Part shown: positions 31,880-64,000 of the stretch, piece by piece | Layout of the letters: each line of letters opens with the position of its first letter | Position numbering within the stretch: position 1 is the first letter of the stretch | Source of the DNA: Halarcobacter ebronensis | Lineage (GTDB): Bacteria; Campylobacterota; Campylobacteria; Campylobacterales; Arcobacteraceae | Length of the DNA: 64,000 bases | Direction: 5' to 3' | Assembly: GCF_013201825.1 (NCBI RefSeq) | Contig: NZ_CP053836.1 | Location: forward strand, 2,108,001-2,172,000 | The notes under the pieces: model-generated | Seen by the model: the letters and a program-made list of their open reading frames with translations, nothing else | What the model was told of the DNA's origin: nothing | The model's database searches: none | Translations under genes and position numbers: made by a program

Positions 31880-31985
31880 AAATAGGGCAAATAGGGCGTC
31901 ACAAATAGGGCGTCAGGGGATAACGATAACATCAAATAACAAATAGGGCAAATAGGGCGTCAGGTGATAACGATAACATCAAATA
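31880..31985. repeat. Short direct repeats, REP/RAYT-like debris
   Basis: The unit AAATAGGGC occurs five times. The longer block AAATAGGGCGTCAGG-K-GATAACGATAACATCAAATAA occurs twice, at about 31904-31939 and 31949-31986. Just upstream at 31804-31815 is TCAGGGGACAGT, a string I associate with REP-type elements that accompany TnpA-REP (RAYT) transposases, though no transposase is present. GC content is above the local level. The link to RAYT elements is from memory and unproven. Confidence 0.6.
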
Positions 31986-32011
31986 AAAGCAAACTTGCTT
32001 TGCTTTTATTT
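31981..32011. terminator. Perfect 13-bp hairpin at the end of the repeat block
   Basis: AAATAAAAGCAAA pairs perfectly with TTTGCTTTTATTT around a CTTGC loop. It ends the repeat block and could terminate transcription of the toxin/immunity remnant, or it may be the palindrome of a REP-like element. A clean T-run is lacking. Confidence 0.5.
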
Positions 32012-32041
32012 GTATTATATCATGTAGATACGAAGCACCTT

Positions 32042-32086
32042 TTTTTTGTTATGGCTTTTAGTCTAATTCTTTTAAAAGTAATTTAG
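32042..32086 (+). pseudogene. Degenerate duplicate of the zupT 3' end
   Basis: The frame reads FFVMAFSLILLKVI and then TAG, against MFIMAFSLILFKLI and stop at the end of zupT. Of the 23 nt starting ATGGCTTTTAGT, 22 are identical and the one difference is synonymous. It lies on the far side of the toxin remnant, so the foreign segment is bracketed by two copies of a ZIP gene end. The TAG overlaps the stop codon of the convergent MBL gene. Confidence 0.75.
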
Positions 32087-43158: not shown

Positions 43159-43197
43159 AAAAATCCTTTGAAAAAGTATAACGATAAATGGTATTTG

Positions 43198-43232
43198 AAA
43201 AGTAATTTTTTTTTTGAGAAAAGGTTACTTTT
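43198..43232. promoter_or_regulatory. Inverted repeat in divergent promoter
   Basis: AAAAGTAA at 43198-43205 and TTACTTTT at 43225-43232 form an 8-bp inverted repeat with a 19-nt spacer. A TATAAT hexamer lies at 43250-43255, before the OmpR-type gene. It may be an operator for that regulator, though eight bases in AT-rich DNA is weak evidence. Confidence 0.35.
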
Positions 43233-43277
43233 GAAATATTCTTTGTTGTTATAATTTTCAAAAATAAGGAGATTATT

Positions 43278-54020: not shown

Positions 54021-54254
54021 TTGGCAAAACTAAAGAACAACAGAACCATTATTAAAAAGGTTATTAATAAACATAAAGAGGGCTCAAAAAAAGAGATTGC
54101 TCAACTTACTATTAAGATTGATAGTAAATTGGATGAAGCTTTAGCTATTCTAAGCAAAGATTTGAATATCTCAAAAAATAGACTTATTGAAGATATACTA
54201 TATGAAAGTGGTATAATTCAAGAAGTTGATGAGAACTATGTGGAGATTGATTAA
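54021..54254 (+). CDS. Small ribbon-helix-helix-like DNA-binding protein
   Basis: A 77-residue lysine-rich protein with a C-terminal segment of RHH/CopG type (QLTIKIDSKLDEALAILSKD, then NISKNRLIEDILYESGI). It starts with TTG, with AAGG 10 nt upstream. It overlaps the next gene by 1 nt (TAATG), and the liv operon follows 42 nt after that gene, so it could regulate these genes. PutA proteins of enteric bacteria carry an RHH domain; the PutA here lacks one, and this separate RHH protein might replace it. The last point is speculation. Confidence 0.75.
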   Translation: MAKLKNNRTIIKKVINKHKEGSKKEIAQLTIKIDSKLDEALAILSKDLNISKNRLIEDILYESGIIQEVDENYVEID

Positions 54255-54913
54255 TGGGTATATTTCCTTTAAAAGATGATGTTATATCTGCTGTTATTTC
54301 AGGAATCAAAAGCGCAAAAAAGAACTATACTTTTTGGACTTGTGATGAACTCTATTTATCATATGCTCCACCAAAGTTTTTATCAATTCATGTTGCACAA
54401 GAGATTGCAAAGTTAAACAATGCACCAGAAATTTTCATTGATGCAACTATCTCCGATATATTAAGATGTTCCCTACCAAATAGATCTGACTTTAGAGAGT
54501 TTATGAGAAAAAACTACATTATGGAAAGAAATTTCTGCATAACTTTAGACGAAAGATTTGAACACAAAAGTGATAATGACTCAATTTCAAGAGTTATAAT
54601 CTCTTTAAAAAACGGTGTAAGGAACGTTCAACAAGAGTACCTTGATGATATTGAATTGATGTGTAAAGTATTGCAAAGAGAACATAAAAATGATACAACT
54701 TTAGATTATGGAATTTTTGCTTTTTATTTAGATATCTCTTCAAGTGCAAGAAAGAAAGCAGATGTTAGACTTGAGTCTATAATTGAATCTTTTGATAATA
54801 TAGTATCAAAATTCAATAATCTTAAATCAACTTTTAAAGGAGGGGAAATAGCAAACATAGAAAAGATAGGTGAGTGGTGTATTGGATGTTATATCATTGA
54901 ACCAACTTTATAA
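54254..54913 (+). CDS. Unknown cytoplasmic protein coupled to the RHH gene
   Basis: A 219-residue soluble protein. I recognise no family. Visible features are an N-terminal WTCDELYLSYAPPKFLSIHVAQEIAK segment, a SARKKADVRLESIIESFDNI helix and a C-terminal GEWCIGCYIIEP. It is translationally coupled to the RHH protein, an arrangement seen in toxin-antitoxin pairs and in regulator/sensor pairs alike, but there is no toxin-like motif. Position just before livK with no clear promoter between suggests co-transcription with the liv operon. Confidence 0.75.
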   Translation: MGIFPLKDDVISAVISGIKSAKKNYTFWTCDELYLSYAPPKFLSIHVAQEIAKLNNAPEIFIDATISDILRCSLPNRSDFREFMRKNYIMERNFCITLDERFEHKSDNDSISRVIISLKNGVRNVQQEYLDDIELMCKVLQREHKNDTTLDYGIFAFYLDISSSARKKADVRLESIIESFDNIVSKFNNLKSTFKGGEIANIEKIGEWCIGCYIIEPTL

Positions 54914-54955: not shown

Positions 54956-56074
54956 ATGAAGAAAATTATAAAAACGCTAGCGCTTAGTAGTATTGTTACT
55001 TGCTCATTACTAGCAAGTGATGTGGTAAAAATTGGGGTGCAAGCACCTATTACAGGTAAATATGCAAATGAAGGGCAAAGTATTGATAACTTTGTAAAAC
55101 TTTTAGTTGACGAAAAAAATGAGCAAGGTGGAATTTTAGGTAAAAAAATTGAAGTTGTAACTTGCGATGATGAAGCAAAAGCACAAAAAGCGGCAGTGTG
55201 TGCAAAAAAACTTGTAAATGCAGGTGTTATAGCTGTAATTGGTTCATACACTTCAGGAGCAACAGAAGCTGCTCAAACTACATATTATAGAAATAAAGTA
55301 TTACAAACAAGTGATGGAACAAGTGATTCTCTAATAGAAAACAAATATTGGACTTTTTTTAGAAACTCTTTTCCAAACTCTTCACAAAGTGACTTTACAG
55401 CTGATTATTTTGTAAATCAAAAAAAATATCAAAGAATTGTTGTTTTATCTGATTACTCTTCATACTCTGATGGACTTGGTACAGCAACAGAAGAGTCTTT
55501 AAAAAAACTTGGAGCAAATGTAATTTTTAGAGGAAAGATTAAATCGGGAACTCAAAATTTTACAGCAGTTCTAACAAAAATCAAAGCTATGAAACCTGAT
55601 GTTATCTATTACTCTGGGTACTATACTGATGGAGGTCTTTTAAGAGCTCAACAACTTCAACTTGGAATCAATGCTGATTTTGTTGGTGGAGACTCAAATG
55701 ATAACCCAGACTTTTATAAACTTGCTGGCGATGCAGCTGAAGGTACAGTTATTATAAACTTCCCTACTCCAGAAATTTTACCTTATGAAGCGGCAAAAAA
55801 ATATTTAGCTGCATATAAAAGAGAGTTTAATATGAATCCTCCTTCAATTTGGCCTGTTACAAATGCTGATGGATTAAGAGCAATTTTTGAAGCTATTGAA
55901 AAAACAAGTTCATTAGATACTAAAAAAATCTCTGACTATATTAGAAATGATATGAAAGATTTCCCAGGTATTACTGGACCTTTTAATATTAGAGAAGATG
56001 GAGAAAGAGTTGGAGCTAAATTTGTAGTATATAAATTGAATAACAATGGAACAAAAGACGTTGTAGGTCAATAA
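54956..56074 (+). CDS. livK: Branched-chain amino acid ABC transporter substrate-binding protein
   Basis: A 372-residue periplasmic binding protein with a signal peptide (MKKIIKTLALSSIVTCSLLA) and the type I fold motifs VKIGVQAPITGKYANEGQSI, VIGSYTSGATEAAQ and DVIYYSGYYTDGG. TAGGAG lies 6 nt before the ATG. LivK-type proteins bind leucine, isoleucine or valine, but relatives also bind other amino acids or amides. With putA shortly downstream, proline or a related substrate cannot be excluded. Confidence 0.93.
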   Translation: MKKIIKTLALSSIVTCSLLASDVVKIGVQAPITGKYANEGQSIDNFVKLLVDEKNEQGGILGKKIEVVTCDDEAKAQKAAVCAKKLVNAGVIAVIGSYTSGATEAAQTTYYRNKVLQTSDGTSDSLIENKYWTFFRNSFPNSSQSDFTADYFVNQKKYQRIVVLSDYSSYSDGLGTATEESLKKLGANVIFRGKIKSGTQNFTAVLTKIKAMKPDVIYYSGYYTDGGLLRAQQLQLGINADFVGGDSNDNPDFYKLAGDAAEGTVIINFPTPEILPYEAAKKYLAAYKREFNMNPPSIWPVTNADGLRAIFEAIEKTSSLDTKKISDYIRNDMKDFPGITGPFNIREDGERVGAKFVVYKLNNNGTKDVVGQ

Positions 56075-56090
56075 AAGATAAAGGAGCAAT

Positions 56091-56993
56091 ATGGATATTT
56101 TTCTTCAACAGTTAATTAATGGTTTAACTATAGGAAGTCTATATGCATTAGTTGCTTTAGGTTATACTATGGTCTATGGGGTAATGAAGTTAATCAACTT
56201 CGCCCATGGAGACCTAGTTGCCTTTTCAGCTTATGTTGGACTTACAATCTTTTCTCAATTATTTGGTAGCAGTGCAACTTCTTTTGTTAGTGTAATTATT
56301 ATTTTTGTATTAACTTCAATTATTGTTGCTTTTGTGGGTGTCCTTCTTGAGCGCCTTGCCTATAGACCTTTAAGAACGGCACCAAGACTTAGTGCAGTTG
56401 TATCTGCCCTTGGAGCGGCTTTAGTTATACAAAATGGTATCATGCTTATTTGGGGACCAAATATGTTAATTTTCCCAGCAGATTTACTTCCAAATACCAC
56501 ATGGAATATTGGTGGAGTTATTATCACTTTTACACAAGTCTGTATTCTGATTTTATCAGCTGTTTTAATGGCAGCTTTATATATATTTATTAATAAAACC
56601 AAAATGGGTACAGCAATTAGAGCAACTGCAATAGATCAAGATGCAGCAAAATTAATGGGAATCAATGTAAATAGAATTATTATGATTATCTTTATAATAG
56701 GTTCAATTTTAGGAGCTATTGGAGGTCTTTTTATTGGTCTTTATTATAGAGCTTTAATTTTTGATATGGGATGGCTTTATGGTTTAAGTGCCTTTATTGC
56801 AGCAATTATTGGTGGAATTGGTTCAATCCCAGGAGCAATGATTGGTGGACTTTTATTAGGACTTTTTAATGCTCTAATTGCAGGTTATATCTCAACTGAA
56901 TGGGCAGAGACTTTTACTTTTATTCTATTAATTATCATTTTAATAGTTAGACCAACGGGTATCCTTGGTGAAAAAACAGCGGAGAAAGTATAA
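56091..56993 (+). CDS. livH: Branched-chain amino acid ABC transporter permease LivH
   Basis: A 300-residue permease with about eight helices and the LivH motifs LINGLTIGSLYALVALGYTMVYG, LINFAHGD, AIRATAIDQDAAKLMGI and GGIGSIPGAMIGG. It forms half of the transmembrane channel with LivM. It starts 16 nt after livK, and its stop overlaps livM by 1 nt. Order livK-livH-livM-livG-livF is complete. Confidence 0.95.
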   Translation: MDIFLQQLINGLTIGSLYALVALGYTMVYGVMKLINFAHGDLVAFSAYVGLTIFSQLFGSSATSFVSVIIIFVLTSIIVAFVGVLLERLAYRPLRTAPRLSAVVSALGAALVIQNGIMLIWGPNMLIFPADLLPNTTWNIGGVIITFTQVCILILSAVLMAALYIFINKTKMGTAIRATAIDQDAAKLMGINVNRIIMIIFIIGSILGAIGGLFIGLYYRALIFDMGWLYGLSAFIAAIIGGIGSIPGAMIGGLLLGLFNALIAGYISTEWAETFTFILLIIILIVRPTGILGEKTAEKV

Positions 56994-57946
56994 TGAATAA
57001 AACAACAGCAATAGCAACACTTTTTGTTGTAGTAATGGGAGTTTTTCCATTTTTAGTTGACTCTGCTTGGTTATCAATAGGAATTACTTTTTTAGTTTTT
57101 GCAACAGTTGCCTTTTCTCAAGATATTATTTTAGGACGAGCTGGTGTGTTTAATATGGGACATGCAATTTTCTTTGGAATGGGAGCATATACAACTGCTA
57201 TTTTAAATGTACATTTTGGATTTGAAATTATTGCAACTCTTCCTTTTGCAATCATTCTTCCTGCAATTATTGCCCTACTTCTTGCAGGTCCAATTATTCA
57301 CTTAAGAGGGGATTATCTTTTAGTAGCGACAATTGGATTTAACATCATCTTTGAACAAGTTCTAAAAAATGATATATTTGGTCTTACAGGTGGGCCAAAT
57401 GGTATTTTTGGTATTGATGTAGTAAGGGTTTTCGGATATGAGTTATTCTCAGATAAAGCGATCTATTATATAGCTTTTGCACTTCTTCTAATAACACTTC
57501 TAATTATTAGGAACTTGGATAACTCAAGATATGGAAGAGCGCTTTATTATATAAACAAAGATGAAATTGCTGCAAAATCTATGGGTATAAATATTCCATA
57601 TTATAAACTTTTTGCTTTTGCATTAGGAGCTGCTATTGCAGGAGCTGCTGGAAGTGTATTTGCAGTCCAATATTCAGCAGTTAGTCCAGAATCATTTAAC
57701 TTTATGCAATCAGTTATGTTTTTTGCAATTGTTCTTGTAGGTGGTTCAGCTTCCCTTCCTGGAGTTATAATTGGTACTTTTGTAATGTTTGTACTACCTG
57801 AGTTATTTACAGAGTTTAAAGAATCAAGATATTTAATCTTTGGAGCAGCAATGGTTTTAACAATGGTTTTAAGACCAAATGGTGTTTGGCCAGCAACTTT
57901 TGGAAATATTCCAAAATTTTTAAAACCAAAAAAAGGGGTTAAATAA
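56993..57946 (+). CDS. livM: Branched-chain amino acid ABC transporter permease LivM
   Basis: A 317-residue permease with LivM signatures AFSQDIILGRAGVFNMGHAI, LLLAGPIIHLRGDYLLVATIGF, GLTGGPNGIFGID and YSAVSPESFNF. It pairs with LivH in the membrane. It overlaps livH and livG by 1 nt at each end (ATGA/TAATG-type coupling), which fits equal synthesis of the subunits. Confidence 0.95.
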   Translation: MNKTTAIATLFVVVMGVFPFLVDSAWLSIGITFLVFATVAFSQDIILGRAGVFNMGHAIFFGMGAYTTAILNVHFGFEIIATLPFAIILPAIIALLLAGPIIHLRGDYLLVATIGFNIIFEQVLKNDIFGLTGGPNGIFGIDVVRVFGYELFSDKAIYYIAFALLLITLLIIRNLDNSRYGRALYYINKDEIAAKSMGINIPYYKLFAFALGAAIAGAAGSVFAVQYSAVSPESFNFMQSVMFFAIVLVGGSASLPGVIIGTFVMFVLPELFTEFKESRYLIFGAAMVLTMVLRPNGVWPATFGNIPKFLKPKKGVK

Positions 57947-58722
57947 TGGAATATGTATTAGAGATAGAAAATGTATCTAAATTTTTCCATGGTTTAGTTG
58001 CAATTGATGATTTAACAATAAAGGTAAAACCTGGACAAATTTATGGAATCATTGGTCCAAATGGAGCTGGGAAAACTACACTTTTTAACTGTGTAACAGG
58101 TATTTATACCCCTGAACAAGGAACAATTAAATACAAAGGTGAAAATATAACAGGAATGCAACCACATAAAATTGCAGCAAGGGGTATTTTAAGAACTTTC
58201 CAAAATATTAGACTTTTTAAAGAGATGAGTGTTGCAGAAAATATTATGGCAGGATACCATACAAGATCAAAACAAAAATGGTATCACGCAATTATTCATA
58301 CACCTTTTTATAAAAAAGATGAGAGACTTGCTTGGCAAAGAGTAGATGAACTAATGAAATTTTTTAATCTAAGCGCTTACTCAACAACTCCTACTGGAGA
58401 TTTATCTTACGGTAATCAAAGAAAAGTAGAAATGGCAAGAGCATTAGCTGCAAATCCTGAACTTCTTATTTTGGATGAACCAGCAGCTGGTCTTAATGAA
58501 AATGAGACCGAAGAGTTAACAGAAATAATAAGAGACATCAGTAAAATGGATATCGGTATTATGATGATTGAGCATGATATGGAGATGGTTATGAATTTAA
58601 CTGACTATATTACTGTTATAAATTTTGGTAAAGAGATATCACAAGGAGTTCCAAGCTTTATACAAGATGACCCTAAAGTTATTGAAGCATATATTGGTAG
58701 TGATGATGAAGAAGAGGAGTAA
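57946..58722 (+). CDS. livG: Branched-chain amino acid ABC transporter ATPase LivG
   Basis: A 258-residue ATPase with Walker A GPNGAGKTT, the LivG-specific GILRTFQNIRLFKEMSVAENIM segment, signature LSYGNQRKVEMARAL and Walker B LLILDEPAAGLN. Together with LivF it powers the importer. The signature LSYG instead of LSGG is the normal LivG form. It is followed after 2 nt by livF. Confidence 0.95.
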   Translation: MEYVLEIENVSKFFHGLVAIDDLTIKVKPGQIYGIIGPNGAGKTTLFNCVTGIYTPEQGTIKYKGENITGMQPHKIAARGILRTFQNIRLFKEMSVAENIMAGYHTRSKQKWYHAIIHTPFYKKDERLAWQRVDELMKFFNLSAYSTTPTGDLSYGNQRKVEMARALAANPELLILDEPAAGLNENETEELTEIIRDISKMDIGIMMIEHDMEMVMNLTDYITVINFGKEISQGVPSFIQDDPKVIEAYIGSDDEEEE

Positions 58723-58724
58723 CA

Positions 58725-59447
58725 ATGGTGAATAATGAAATTCTATTAGATATAAAAGATTTAGAGGTAAGCTATGGAGCTATTGCTGCTATTAAAGGTA
58801 TCTCATTACATGTAAAAAAAGGTGAAGTTGTTACAATTTTAGGTGCCAATGGTGCAGGGAAAACAACAACTCTTAGAACAATTTCAGGACTACTTAAAGC
58901 AAAAGCTGGGCATATAATTTTTGATAAAAATGATATTACTAAATGTGAAGCACACGATATTGTAGCTCTTGGGATGTCACACTCTCCTGAGGGAAGAAGA
59001 GTATTTGGAACGTTAAGCGTCCAAGAGAATCTAATGATGGGTGCTTATACTTTAAAAAGCCATGATAAGGAGACTTTAGAGTGGATATATGATATTTTAC
59101 CAAGACTTAAAGAAAGGAGAAAGCAATTAGCAGGAACTCTTTCAGGTGGTGAGCAACAAATGCTAGCTATTGGAAGAGCGATTATGAGTAAACCTAAATT
59201 ACTTATTTTGGATGAGCCCTCACTTGGACTTGCTCCAATTTTGGTTAAGGCGATATTTAAAGCAGTTAAAGAGATTGCTTTAAGTGGTGTTACTGTGTTA
59301 TTAGTTGAACAAAATGCAAAAGCTGCACTAAAACTAGCAGATAGAGCATATGTTTTAGAAGTTGGAAAAATTACCCATCAAGGAACATCTGAAGAGTTGT
59401 TAAATTCAAAAACAATTCAAGAGGCATATTTGGGTAAAAAACATTAA
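58725..59447 (+). CDS. livF: Branched-chain amino acid ABC transporter ATPase LivF
   Basis: A 240-residue ATPase with Walker A GANGAGKTT, the LivF-type SHSPEGRRVFGTLSVQENL segment, signature LSGGEQQMLAIGRA and Walker B LLILDEPSLGLAP. It closes the liv operon. A structured, GC-rich stretch begins 19 nt after the stop and precedes putA. Confidence 0.95.
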   Translation: MVNNEILLDIKDLEVSYGAIAAIKGISLHVKKGEVVTILGANGAGKTTTLRTISGLLKAKAGHIIFDKNDITKCEAHDIVALGMSHSPEGRRVFGTLSVQENLMMGAYTLKSHDKETLEWIYDILPRLKERRKQLAGTLSGGEQQMLAIGRAIMSKPKLLILDEPSLGLAPILVKAIFKAVKEIALSGVTVLLVEQNAKAALKLADRAYVLEVGKITHQGTSEELLNSKTIQEAYLGKKH

Positions 59448-59466
59448 TCAAAAGAAGAAAAATATC

Positions 59467-59540
59467 AAGTAGCAAGAGGGGTTTTACTTGGCGGTGTTCC
59501 CCTCTAAAGCACATTTGAAAGCGTGCGCTTTAGGCTACTT
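59467..59540 (+). ncRNA. Candidate cis-regulatory RNA: three-way junction upstream of putA
   Basis: The stretch can fold into a closing stem P1 (AAGTAGC at 59467-59473 with GCTACTT at 59534-59540, 7 bp), P2 (AGAGGGG at 59475-59481 with CCCCTCT at 59499-59505, 7 bp, 17-nt loop) and P3 (AAAG plus CAC at 59506-59512 with GTG plus CTTT at 59523-59531, two-base bulge). Junction strands are 1, 0 and 2 nt. Base composition is near 50% GC in DNA of well under 30%, a usual sign of structured RNA. I do not recognise a known riboswitch class. It could regulate putA or form part of the liv 3' end. Confidence 0.55.
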
Positions 59541-59568
59541 AAAATTTTATTAAACCTCAATAAATTTT
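59541..59568 (+). promoter_or_regulatory. AT-rich hairpin directly before the putA ribosome-binding site
   Basis: AAAATTTTATT can pair with AATAAATTTT (one bulged T) around an AAACCTC loop. It lies between the three-way junction and the AAGGA of putA (59569-59573), so it could serve as the expression platform that opens or closes the start site. Being AT-only, it is weak on its own. Confidence 0.35.
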
Positions 59569-59579
59569 AAGGACAGTGT

Positions 59580-62500
59580 ATGAAAAATGAAGAAACTATT
59601 ATTCAATCTGCAATACAATTAGCAGAAAAATGGCAAAATAGAGCAACAGAACTTGTAAGCGATTTTGATAGAGAATTTTATGTAAAAATGAACAAAATGT
59701 TAGAGCATCCAAAGGATAAAGCTCTTTTAATAGAATTAATGGATCAATGTTTTAGATGTGATTCAAATGCTAGAGTGGCTGATCAAATCTGCTTTTTATT
59801 AGAAAAACATGGAATGGCACACTTCTTTACAACAAAAGATAGAATGCTTTTATGGTTATTCCAAAATGTAGGTAAATTTTTACCAAACCTTTCTGTTCCT
59901 ATGTTTATAAGTCAAATTAGAGAAGATACTAAAACAGTTGTAATAAAAGGTGAAAAAGAGATTTTTAATAAACACCTAGTTATGAGAAAAAAAGAAGGAA
60001 CAAGGGTTAATATTAACCTTATTGGTGAAGTAGTTCTTGGAGAAGAAGAGGCTAGTGAGAGAATTGAAAAATATTTAGATGCCCTATCTAATCCAAATAT
60101 TGACTACATTTCAATTAAAATTTCAACAATCTATTCACAAATAAATGCACTAAATTTTGACAATACTGTTAATGTTTTAGTTGACAAATTAAGTAAAATC
60201 TACGCTCAAGCAAAAAAATATCCTTATATCGCACCAGATGGAACAAAATCAAACAAATTTATAAATCTTGATATGGAAGAGTATAGAGATTTAGCTATTA
60301 CTGTTGCAGTATTCAAAAAAACATTAGAGAAAGAGGAGTTCAAAGATTTCTACGCAGGAATTGTTCTTCAAGCTTATCTTCCAGACTCATACAATTGGCA
60401 AAAAGATTTAAGAGAGTGGGCTAAAGAAAGAGTAGAAAATGGTGGTGCACCTATTAAATTTAGACTTGTAAAAGGTGCTAATATGGAGATGGAAGAGACT
60501 GAAGCTTCTCAAAAACATTGGGAAATGGTAACTTATACAGATAAAAGTGATACAGACTCAAACTACAAAAGAATGATTAAATATGCCCTACTTCCAGAAA
60601 ATGCTCCCTATATGCATGTGGGAACTGCTTCACACAACCTATTTGAACAAGCTTTTGCTACTGAACTTGCAAAAGTAAATGAAACTTCACAATACCATAC
60701 TATTGAGATGTTAGAAGGGATGAGTGAAGCTGCAAGACTTGCAATTAAAGAGATATCAAAAGAGGTAATTTTATATGCACCAACAGCAGCAAAAGAGCAG
60801 TTTACAAATGCTATTGCATATTTAGTTAGAAGACTTGATGAAAATACAGGGGAAGATAACTTTATTAGATACTCATTTGGTCTTAAAGTTGGTTCAAAAG
60901 ATTGGCAAATGCAAAAAGAGCTTTTCCTAAAATCTTTTGAAAATGAAAAAACTTCTTTTGTTGGGGCAAAAAGACAACAAAATAGGCTTACAGAAGATTG
61001 GTCAAATTTTGACAAAAGTTCTTATGATACAAAAGAGTTCCATAATGAAGCTGATACAGATTTCGTTCTTCCTCAAAACCAAGAGTGGGCAAGAAACATT
61101 GTAAAAAAATGGCAATTTACAAAAGATACAGAACATAAAATTGTACCTGTAGTAGTTGCAGGTGAAGATATCACAGATAGAGTAATTGTTGAAGCTATTG
61201 ATAAATCACAACTTGAAGAAAATATCCTTGCAGGTAAATTTGCAACAGCAAATGCACAAGATTTACAAAAAGCAGTTGAAGTTGCAAAAGCAGATCTTGA
61301 TGGATGGAGAGCTTTAAGCCATGAACAAAGACATAAAGCATTAAAAGAGGTTGCTAAAATAGTTAGAGAAAGAAGAGATGATTTAATAGGAATTGCTGCA
61401 GCAGAAGTTGGAAAAGTTTTTATTGAGACTGATGTTGAAGTATCTGAAGCAATTGACTTTTTAGAGTTCTATCCATACTCAACACACTACTTTGAAAAAT
61501 ATAAAAACCTCCAATTTAGTGGTAAAGGTGTTGGAGTAGTTATCCCACCTTGGAACTTCCCTGTTGCTATTCCAATGGGTGGGGTCGTTGCAACTTTAGC
61601 TTCTGGAAATACTGCAATTATAAAACCAGCTTCAGCAGCTGCACTTACTGCTTATGAGATGTGCAAATGTTTTTGGGATGCAGGAATATCTAAAAATACT
61701 CTTCAATTTGTACCTTGTTCAGGAAGTTTAGCAGGAGAACATCTAATTAAAAATGAAGATGTTGATTTTGTAATCTTAACAGGTGGTGAAGATACAGCTG
61801 CAACTATGCTAAATACTAGAGCAAATCTATTTTTAACAGCAGAGACTGGTGGGAAAGATGCAACTATTGTAACAAGTATGGCAGATAGAGAACAAGCTAT
61901 TAAAAATGTTTGTCATAGTGCTTTTTCTAACTCAGGGCAAAAATGTTCTGCTACTTCACTTTTAATTCTTGAAGAAGAGGTTTATAATGACGAAAACTTC
62001 AAAAAGGCACTTCTTGACACAGCTAAATCTATGAGTGTAGGTTCTGTTTGGGATTTAAAAAATAGAGTAGGAACTTTAGCAAACAAAGTTTCAGGTAAAC
62101 TTCAAAAAGCTATTAGCACTTTAGAAGATGGTGAAGAGTGGTTATTGGAGCCATCTTATGCTCAAAACAATGAATACATGTTAAAACCTGCAATCAAATG
62201 GGGTGTAAAAGAGGGAAGCTTTATGCACATGAATGAGCTTTTTGGTCCAGTGTTAGCAGTAATGAAAGCCAAAGATTTAGAACATGCTGTTAAAATTGTA
62301 AATGCAACTGGTTATGGTCTAACTTCTGGAATTGAATCATTAGATGAAAGAGAAGTTAATTATTGGAGATCTAATGTAAAAGCTGGAAATCTATATATTA
62401 ATAGAGGAACAACAGGAGCAATTGTACTTAGACAACCATTTGGTGGGATGGCTAAATCAGCAATTGGTTCAGGAAGAAAAGCAGGAAGCTTAAACTATGT

Positions 62501-63149
62501 AACACAGTTTATGAACTTTACTGAAATTTCAGAACCTAAAGCTTCTAAAAAATATAATAATGACTTAACTAGATTTATTGAAAATCTAAAAGATAATAAC
62601 CTTGATAAAGATGATAAAATAAAACTACAAGCTGCACTTCAATCATATCTAGAGAGCTATGAAAATGAGTTTTCTAAAGAGAGAGATTATTGTAAAGTAA
62701 GAGGTGAAGACAATATTTTTAAATATCTTCCTATAAAAAATGCTCTAATAAGAGTATCAAATGATGATTCACTTTTTGAAGTTATCTCAAGAATTCTTGC
62801 AGCAAAAGTGTCAAAAGTACACTTTAGAGTATCTATTGATAACAATAAAAGAGTAGAAAATTTTTTAACAACTCATAAAAATGAACTTTTTGGACCTAGA
62901 GATGCCTTTGCTGTTGAAAATACTAAAGAGTTTATGCAATCAATTCCACATTATGAAAAAGTTATTTACTCAGATATAACAAAAGTACCTGCTGAAGTTT
63001 TTGAAAAAGCTGCTAAAACTTTAACTTTCATTATAAGAGCAAAACCTATGATGGAGGGAAGAGTTGAACTTCTTAATTACTTTATAGAACAATCAATATC
63101 TCACTCATACCACAGATATGGAAACATCGGTGCAAGAGGAATAAAATAA
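59580..63149 (+). CDS. putA: Bifunctional proline dehydrogenase/P5C dehydrogenase PutA
   Basis: A 1189-residue enzyme. The N-terminal proline dehydrogenase (to about 460) shows RLVKGANMEMEE and RRLDENTGEDNF for FAD and proline binding. The P5C dehydrogenase (about 510-1000) has PPWNFPVAIPMGG, general base E755 (AETGGK) and nucleophile C789 (SGQKCSA). It converts proline to glutamate in two steps with substrate channelling. There is no N-terminal RHH domain, so it should not repress its own gene. About 190 residues follow the dehydrogenase core, a C-terminal extension of unknown role. AAGGA precedes the ATG. Confidence 0.96.
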   Translation: MKNEETIIQSAIQLAEKWQNRATELVSDFDREFYVKMNKMLEHPKDKALLIELMDQCFRCDSNARVADQICFLLEKHGMAHFFTTKDRMLLWLFQNVGKFLPNLSVPMFISQIREDTKTVVIKGEKEIFNKHLVMRKKEGTRVNINLIGEVVLGEEEASERIEKYLDALSNPNIDYISIKISTIYSQINALNFDNTVNVLVDKLSKIYAQAKKYPYIAPDGTKSNKFINLDMEEYRDLAITVAVFKKTLEKEEFKDFYAGIVLQAYLPDSYNWQKDLREWAKERVENGGAPIKFRLVKGANMEMEETEASQKHWEMVTYTDKSDTDSNYKRMIKYALLPENAPYMHVGTASHNLFEQAFATELAKVNETSQYHTIEMLEGMSEAARLAIKEISKEVILYAPTAAKEQFTNAIAYLVRRLDENTGEDNFIRYSFGLKVGSKDWQMQKELFLKSFENEKTSFVGAKRQQNRLTEDWSNFDKSSYDTKEFHNEADTDFVLPQNQEWARNIVKKWQFTKDTEHKIVPVVVAGEDITDRVIVEAIDKSQLEENILAGKFATANAQDLQKAVEVAKADLDGWRALSHEQRHKALKEVAKIVRERRDDLIGIAAAEVGKVFIETDVEVSEAIDFLEFYPYSTHYFEKYKNLQFSGKGVGVVIPPWNFPVAIPMGGVVATLASGNTAIIKPASAAALTAYEMCKCFWDAGISKNTLQFVPCSGSLAGEHLIKNEDVDFVILTGGEDTAATMLNTRANLFLTAETGGKDATIVTSMADREQAIKNVCHSAFSNSGQKCSATSLLILEEEVYNDENFKKALLDTAKSMSVGSVWDLKNRVGTLANKVSGKLQKAISTLEDGEEWLLEPSYAQNNEYMLKPAIKWGVKEGSFMHMNELFGPVLAVMKAKDLEHAVKIVNATGYGLTSGIESLDEREVNYWRSNVKAGNLYINRGTTGAIVLRQPFGGMAKSAIGSGRKAGSLNYVTQFMNFTEISEPKASKKYNNDLTRFIENLKDNNLDKDDKIKLQAALQSYLESYENEFSKERDYCKVRGEDNIFKYLPIKNALIRVSNDDSLFEVISRILAAKVSKVHFRVSIDNNKRVENFLTTHKNELFGPRDAFAVENTKEFMQSIPHYEKVIYSDITKVPAEVFEKAAKTLTFIIRAKPMMEGRVELLNYFIEQSISHSYHRYGNIGARGIK

Positions 63150-63258: not shown

Positions 63259-64000
63259 ATGAAATTTTCTCTCTCTAAAATAAATTTTTTAAATCTTATT
63301 TGTACAATCCTAGTTTTTTCAATTGTAACTGCTTTTTTTATTTTTAAGTTTGTAGATGACTTTTATAACAGCCGTATGGACGATTTTGAGAAAAGATATA
63401 TTGAAAAAAATAAAATCCTAATCAAAAATGAAGTTGAAAGATCAATTCAAAGAGCAGAAATATTAAAAGATCTTGAATATGAAAACAATAAAAATAAATT
63501 AGAAGAAAAGATTGACTTTGTTCAAAAAGTTTTAGATAACAAATATATAAATACCAAAACAGCGGAAGAGTTTGTAAAAAGCTATAAAAAAGAGCTTGAT
63601 TTATATAAATGGGATAACGACACTGGATATATCTATATTTTTAACGATAAAGGAAAAGTTTTATATCATGGATATAATGAAACACTTCTTTCAAAAAATA
63701 TATTTAAGATTGCTAAAAATAATCCTGAATTAGACTCTTTTTTATCTGAAACTCTAAAAAAAGATGAAAATTATGGAAGTTATAAATGGCAAATGCCAAA
63801 TATAAATAACAATCAACTCTTCAAAAAATATGTGTATATAAAAAAATATCAGAGATTAAAAATTTTTATTGCAGCTGGTGTATATAAAAAGGAGATGGAT
63901 AAAAAATTAATTGATGTTTATATAAATGAGCTTAAAAAAGATAGGTTTGGAGAATCAGATTATGGCTACTTTTGGGTACAAAATACTGAAGCAAAAGTAG
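63259..64000 (+). CDS. Cache-domain membrane sensor, 5' part only
   Basis: The frame from ATG 63259 runs to the window edge (247 codons). It encodes a membrane segment (about residues 10-33), a charged helix and a Cache_2-like sensor with GYIYIFNDKGKVLYHGYNE and FIAAGVYKKEMDKKL, and a second unit starts with SDYGYFWVQN at the end. The ligand-binding layout is that of sensor kinases, diguanylate cyclases or chemoreceptors; the output lies outside the window. AAGG precedes the ATG at 8 nt. Confidence 0.8.
   Translation, partial: MKFSLSKINFLNLICTILVFSIVTAFFIFKFVDDFYNSRMDDFEKRYIEKNKILIKNEVERSIQRAEILKDLEYENNKNKLEEKIDFVQKVLDNKYINTKTAEEFVKSYKKELDLYKWDNDTGYIYIFNDKGKVLYHGYNETLLSKNIFKIAKNNPELDSFLSETLKKDENYGSYKWQMPNINNNQLFKKYVYIKKYQRLKIFIAAGVYKKEMDKKLIDVYINELKKDRFGESDYGYFWVQNTEAKV

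Follow-up and report, generated by a model that had tools for sequence, protein, structure and literature searches.

Riboswitches of the purine type are three-way junctions closed by P1, whose two hairpins are capped by conserved loops. For amino acids, the pertinent section of a 2022 review lists only glycine, lysine and glutamine as ligands of validated direct-sensing riboswitch classes (PMC9971707). The glycine (gcvT), lysine and glutamine-I/-II riboswitches lie in the 5′ leaders of amino-acid genes, where a conserved multi-stem aptamer is followed by an expression platform, and gcvT RNAs are common before degradation genes according to the relevant part of PMC7266159. In proline metabolism, the T-box leaders of proBA and proI in Bacillus sense uncharged tRNA and control biosynthesis, as described in the section concerned of PMC13198045. 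Two orphan leader RNAs, the proX motif and an opuB-associated riboswitch candidate, are found close to genes for (proline) betaine transport, and a masked ribosome-binding site is described for the proX motif (PMC8632094; PMC11109978).

Here, we describe an element that, from its sequence, looks like an RNA family without an Rfam entry, resembling a riboswitch leader for proline catabolism. The window, that is, the whole 64,000-nucleotide stretch of DNA that was analyzed (G000:C1:2108001-2172000, in a genome of 3.17 Mb), lies on a contig whose closest named relatives are Arcobacteraceae, which gives the window its family. Reading of the sequence and its open reading frames placed the element on the coding strand between the end of livF (59447) and the start of putA (59580). 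Like the glycine, lysine and glutamine riboswitches, it stands in the leader of an amino-acid gene, with a putative multi-stem aptamer followed by a putative expression platform, and, as is common for gcvT RNAs, this gene serves degradation. It differs from them in being a single small three-way junction with the loops ACUUGGCGGU and ..AAAGC, in its putA/ocd (ornithine cyclodeaminase) context, and in having no Rfam match. With the Bacillus leaders it would have in common RNA-level control in proline metabolism, but it has no T-box match. Its general shape is that of a purine-type riboswitch, but there is no Rfam covariance match, and the loop and junction consensus differ from the purine consensus as generally known. 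The proX and opuB motifs differ in their genes and in their bacteria (proX being primarily from Spiribacter), their sequences having been compared with the element via the Rfam scan only.

The Rfam 15 models gave no match above the gathering cutoff in the window or in six further loci, in agreement with the original prediction, which knew of no matching class, and at E<=10 the region 59400-59640 yielded only three unrelated low-scoring matches. In open-licence PubMed Central, the phrase "proline riboswitch" was not found, nor were putA, riboswitch and structured RNA found together. Proline dehydrogenase, riboswitch and putA do co-occur in four papers, in one of which passages show them to be unconnected, and wordings for a proline-sensing RNA or a putA motif led only to a paper on a T-box. 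The words putA and Arcobacter are absent from the main texts of PMC8632094 and PMC11109978. Stav et al. (2019; PMC6429828) included Arcobacter sp. L in their study and gave no names to motifs confined to one genus; the words putA and proline are absent from its main text, and the element could possibly be among these unnamed Arcobacter-confined motifs. On balance, we favor reading 59467-59573 as a cis-acting RNA of an undescribed family, confined so far to Arcobacteraceae, that would control putA translation, with proline as its likeliest ligand.

Architecture and conservation of the putA leader element

Upstream of the element on the plus strand, open reading frames from 54956 to 59447 make up a liv-type amino-acid ABC transporter operon with a binding protein, two permeases and two ATPases. 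The binding protein matches NF011933 below that model's cutoff, and the permeases and ATPases were named from reading their sequences. Downstream, putA (59580-63149, plus strand) encodes a bifunctional proline dehydrogenase/P5C dehydrogenase with Pfam Pro_dh and Aldedh domains; its matches to the NCBIfam PutA models are below their cutoffs. Escherichia coli PutA represses itself via a ribbon-helix-helix domain. In the window PutA, a Pfam search found Pro_dh and Aldedh only and no DNA-binding domain. The gene after putA (63259-63999) has an N-terminal dCache_2 sensor domain.

The three-way junction spans 59467-59540 on the plus strand. P1 is formed by the 5′ strand AAGUAGC (59467-59473) and the 3′ strand GCUACUU (59534-59540) in the fold and the structural alignments, and the final CUU of the latter is also the proposed anti-Shine-Dalgarno (anti-SD) sequence. 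P2 pairs AGAGGGG (59475-59481), where compensatory changes were seen, with CCCCUCU (59499-59505), and in the minimum free energy (MFE) fold it encloses an inner stem UACU/GGUG and a loop. The near-invariant hairpin ACUUGGCGGU within P2 (59486-59495) is, by its loop conservation, a candidate ligand or tertiary-contact site. P3 consists of the 5′ strand AAAGC-A-CAU (59506-59514), with a single A opposite C, and the 3′ strand GUG-C-GCUUU (59523-59531), paired as 59506-59510 plus 59512-59514 with 59523-59525 plus 59527-59531; its loop (59515-59522) often ends in AAAGC or GAAGC in the alignments. A linker of 39 nt from P1 to the putA ATG contains an AU-rich hairpin and the SD sequence AAGGA (59569-59573), which is spaced 6 nt from the ATG.

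The original prediction had named a local GC peak and three stems closing a three-way junction, and both were borne out. The MFE fold of 59466-59540 is the closed three-way junction (-26.8 kcal/mol, z -2.31), with 4 of 200 shuffles as good. The 75-mers at 59463 and 59468 have a GC content of 0.47, tied with that at 31885 as the highest among 641 intergenic 75-mers sampled in the window, intergenic being crudely defined as outside ATG frames of at least 100 codons. Among the same 641, the element fold is the second most stable, behind 43179. For the longer segment 59460-59590, the single-sequence MFE prefers a different fold (z -2.11). Folding of the reverse strand is at least as favorable (z -3.30). 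Thermodynamics by itself is modestly unusual, and it is the comparative evidence that lifts the element above chance. Comparably stable intergenic folds lie elsewhere in the window, at about 43179-43253 on the plus strand (-26.7 kcal/mol per 75 nt) and at 31970-32044 on the minus strand (-23.9 kcal/mol per 75 nt).

In the structural alignment, compensatory changes were present in 12 of the 23 pairs and 93.5% of cells were paired, the pair statistics coming from models R2 and R3 only. Covariation was 0.258 compared to 0.036-0.070 for slid structures, in an alignment of 49 matches (33 distinct rows, including decayed copies) that was fitted to the model and hence biased toward the structure. Against a tree-simulated null, five of the 23 structure pairs, tested alone, reached E<0.05 (four in P3 and one in P2); this test used 28 of the 30 rows of alignment A5, the two second copies (see below) having been dropped with P3 badly aligned. 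When all 2628 column pairs were tested against the tree null, none reached E<0.05; the best three of the 2628 were structural (E 0.155, 0.765 and 1.2), followed by non-structure pairs at 1.83 and 2.54. P1 contains no significant covarying pair because it hardly varies. The main loop follows the pattern ACUUG[GC]C[GC]G in 27 of the 28 intact copies before putA and is exactly ACUUGGCGG in 24 of them, or in 26 of 30 when the second copies are counted. Covariation and conservation upstream of putA, by which the original prediction was to be judged, are thus both present, and we regard it as nearly certain that the element is a real conserved cis-regulatory RNA. As a riboswitch would, it appears to combine a conserved structured aptamer with covariation support and a place in the 5′ leaders of genes that belong together metabolically.

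Wobble pairs do not distinguish the active strand. Within the 23 pairs, 52 cells are G-U (26 of them from one loop pair) compared to 13 that are A-C, and the extra single-A position in P3, which is A/C in 21 of 30 rows and A/U in 6, would add 21 more. We assumed activity of the coding strand, given that the element keeps a constant position, spacing and SD with respect to putA.

Distribution and genomic context

A DNA similarity search detected the element in close relatives, and covariance models extended the search. Model R1, trained on 15 copies, matched in 30 of 104 family genomes, and by tblastn a putA start follows directly after the element in all 30 R1 loci. Model R3, trained on 28 putA copies and two second copies and thus including copies that it scored, matched in 28 of the 104 genomes at E<=1e-9, with five further weak, decayed copies (G049, G047, G011, G006 and G048). 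In all 28 strong-match genomes the element precedes putA, and two of these genomes carry an additional copy elsewhere; in the window's own genome, genome search and covariance models detected a single copy of the 75-nt element. A putA start was found in 47 family genomes, of which 28 have an intact element, five a decayed one and 14 none; three genomes were dropped from this count, G071 and G076 with the N-terminus unmatched and G084 with 36% identity over the N-terminal part only. None of the remaining 57 family genomes has an element at E<=0.001 (Fisher p 4e-13, for species that are not independent).

No credible copy was found outside the family in 398 order genomes (R2) or 397 phylum genomes (R3); both samples include some family members and were scored with stricter filters. 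Seven non-family matches (L135-L138 and L163-L165; E 0.03-0.35) were rejected, all lying wholly or mostly inside open frames of at least 120 codons. Twelve R3 matches within the family scored lower, among them the second hit in G098 and those in G019, G063, G027 and G066 (E 0.51-0.76); the seven that were read (L167-L173) were rejected, four being terminator-like and three lying in coding stretches. In two Sulfurospirillum leaders (L051 and L060), the last 130 nt before putA contain an AU-rich hairpin that likewise masks the SD, and possibly a P1/three-stem fold, without the ACUUGGCGG loop. We do not claim these as a distant version of the element, as there are only two such sequences, which resemble each other, and no model matched them.

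The two additional copies are located in G094 (L134:8320-8402) and G090 (L154:4349-4443, minus strand), each before an operon. Behind the G094 copy lie ctlX (NF046062, 415.5 bits, cutoff 334), ornithine cyclodeaminase (NF005762, 462.5, cutoff 350) and a gene of the arginase family, which scored 221.6 with TIGR01229, just below the cutoff of 227.6, and above the cutoff with Pfam Arginase. In G090, ctlX is a short remnant upstream of ocd and arginase. Together, ctlX, ocd and arginase make up a route from arginine/citrulline via ornithine to proline, feeding PutA. Both second copies retain the loop and fold into a three-way junction with rebuilt stems. Their SD fronts a short frame (58 codons in G094, 9 codons in G090), not ctlX or ocd, so that coupling, or plain duplication of the putA leader, must be considered. 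The link to ocd comes from two related genomes of one genus.

We also compared what precedes putA with and without the element. No terminator-like site was found in 58700-60000, and among the 30 element-bearing leaders a terminator was called in one, a spurious match inside the aptamer. The original prediction would have failed had the segment been only the liv operon terminator, and this is not what we found. A terminator precedes putA in 14 of 23 contigs from other groups that have no element (selected from 50 loci after exclusion of L043 and of all that bore an element, belonged to the family, were truncated or were very distant). The same holds for 4 of 18 regions of the family in which the element is missing or decayed. 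Since the element leaders lack a terminator, liv transcription probably enters putA, and control must then act on the RNA. In L041 and L098, which have an identical element sequence and like scores, the gene upstream of the element and putA is a different ABC-transporter gene, read from sequence in L041 and represented in L098 by an upstream ATPase 31% identical to livF. This gene order indicates that the element tracks putA, not liv.

A GTANTAC-N5-GTANTAC repeat occurs upstream of putA in 7 of the 14 element-less family genomes (L111, L112, L114-L116, L119 and L120) and in none of the 30 element leaders (Fisher p 9e-5). It was also seen in 9 of the 23 element-less contigs, mostly Sulfurospirillum or Campylobacteraceae (L048-L050, L053, L056, L063, L071, L072 and L075), one of the nine having a slightly shorter spacer. 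From these sequences, putA without the element often appears to have its own operator-like site. Nature thus provides a comparison between related putA genes that are seemingly governed either by RNA or by a DNA operator. A frame of about 20 codons (MRHKRRLQSKVQDLHKGQ type, recognized by eye) lies between the transporter genes and putA in L032, L034, L041, L043, L117, L118 and L126, where it mostly accompanies a decayed or missing element.

Proposed expression platform and predicted switching

The proposed expression platform (59538-59571, plus strand) is an AU-rich hairpin, CUUAAAAUUU / AAAUUUUAAG, in which 59538-59547 pairs with 59562-59571 over the SD start (z -2.19 for this leader). The hairpin, described in the original prediction as touching the putA ribosome-binding site, does enter the SD AAGGA (59569-59573), so the feature runs a few bases beyond the originally given end at 59568.

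Folding of the P1 3′ strand, linker and SD together gave, in 25 of 30 leaders, a hairpin in which the P1 3′ CUU is paired to the AAG of the SD; the other five do not have the full CUU/SD pairing. In both second copies the P1 3′ strand reads CCUU and pairs with AAGG. Compared with dinucleotide-shuffled linkers, the P1-strand/SD hairpin had z<0 in 28 of 30 leaders (mean -1.74); taken one by one, 16 of the 30 leaders ranked within the best 5% of their shuffles. P1 closure and SD pairing need the same bases, so P1 formation should expose the SD. In the second copies the junction-closing stem shares a region with the CCUU strand, and the MFE stem of L134 stops at CUAC, just before CUU.

By ensemble modeling of the 30 leaders, forcing the aptamer raised mean SD exposure from 0.55 to 0.69. 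The gain exceeded 0.05 in 17 of the 30 leaders and was at most 0.05 in 13, with a lowest change of -0.03; this set includes the two second copies, which align poorly, and without them 15 of 28 gained more than 0.05. In-silico switching is thus modest. The pairing and exposure data lend in-silico support to the originally proposed arrangement of an aptamer plus a platform, here one that would mask the SD.

From this modeling we infer switching and its direction as follows. The aptamer, a three-way junction whose two hairpin loops are conserved, would be followed by the AU-rich platform; without ligand, the CUU at the 3′ end of P1 would join the AU hairpin and pair with the SD AAG. A ligand would stabilize the junction, the strand would be retained in P1, and the ribosome site would open, giving an ON switch. 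We consider translational ON logic fairly likely and hold the element to be quite probably a small-molecule riboswitch.

Candidate ligand and alternative explanations

The most plausible ligand would be proline, which PutA consumes and ornithine cyclodeaminase produces. The original prediction had suggested a role in sensing proline or P5C, and this gains support because the second copies precede an ornithine cyclodeaminase operon. At E<=1e-30, ocd was found in 6 of the 28 intact-element genomes (G013, G050, G090, G091, G094 and G095), which makes ornithine unlikely as the shared link; in four of these six, no element was found at the ocd region. Judged by its genes, a proline or P5C signal would fit the putA and ocd contexts better than ornithine. 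We infer proline (or P5C) as the ligand with about even confidence.

A riboswitch of the same architecture could instead sense nitrogen or carbon status (glutamine, glutamate, 2-oxoglutarate or related compounds) and gate amino-acid catabolism generally, which seems to us rather unlikely. The putA and ocd pathways, as generally understood, both yield glutamate and release nitrogen. Nitrogen management is also well represented among riboswitch ligands in the section concerned of the 2022 review (PMC9971707). However, the credible copies have only putA and ctlX/ocd/arginase as their contexts, and no Rfam glutamine riboswitch model matches. We think it unlikely that, instead of sensing a metabolite directly, the RNA is bound by a protein such as PutA itself or by a trans-acting sRNA, for instance one that recognizes a loop. 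Protein-bound leader RNAs can resemble such elements, the two short conserved loops could serve as recognition sites, and further copies of the loop complement were found in three of five genomes (G000, G001 and G091). In G014 and G094, however, an exact complement to the 10 bases of the main loop is present only at the element, which argues against a perfectly matched sRNA there, and conservation covers the entire junction, not one hairpin.

The element is intergenic, GC-rich and stable, as a passive structure between liv and putA would be, whether a liv terminator or an mRNA-processing or stability structure. Its leaders lack genuine terminator-like sites, as described above, it is not tied to liv (L041 and L098 have another transporter gene, and G094 and G090 carry it before another operon as well), and its loops are conserved beyond what the stems alone require; we regard a passive role as very unlikely. 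Amino-acid genes are commonly controlled by ribosome-mediated leader-peptide attenuation or by a T-box (PMC9971707; PMC13198045), but here attenuation through a proline-rich frame, or a T-box, is extremely improbable. Leader frames vary in frame and length, a closed frame with at least three Pro occurs in 1 of 30 leaders and an ATG-started frame of at least 6 codons in 9 of 30, and the Rfam T-box model gave no match.

If the favored reading of a proline-responsive RNA is true, a compact three-way-junction aptamer switches on the breakdown of proline and, in two species, its formation from arginine/citrulline too. It might then be the first natural proline riboswitch and the fourth case of a directly sensed proteinogenic amino acid, making the ribosome-binding site accessible in bacteria of a lineage with no DNA-binding autoregulator domain in PutA; this fuller claim is tentative, and we place it somewhat short of even. 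The narrow gene context and the relatives in Malaciobacter halophilus DSM 18005, Poseidonibacter ostreae and lekithochrous strains make a proline-sensing RNA testable with a transcript of about 77 nt.

Separately, we observed that 54254-54913 of the window encodes a 219-aa protein with no Pfam or NCBIfam match. A relative 55% identical to it lies upstream of the G094 second-copy operon; others, recognized by eye, are divergent from putA in G002, G003, G008, G009 and G010 and stand directly before putA in G056.
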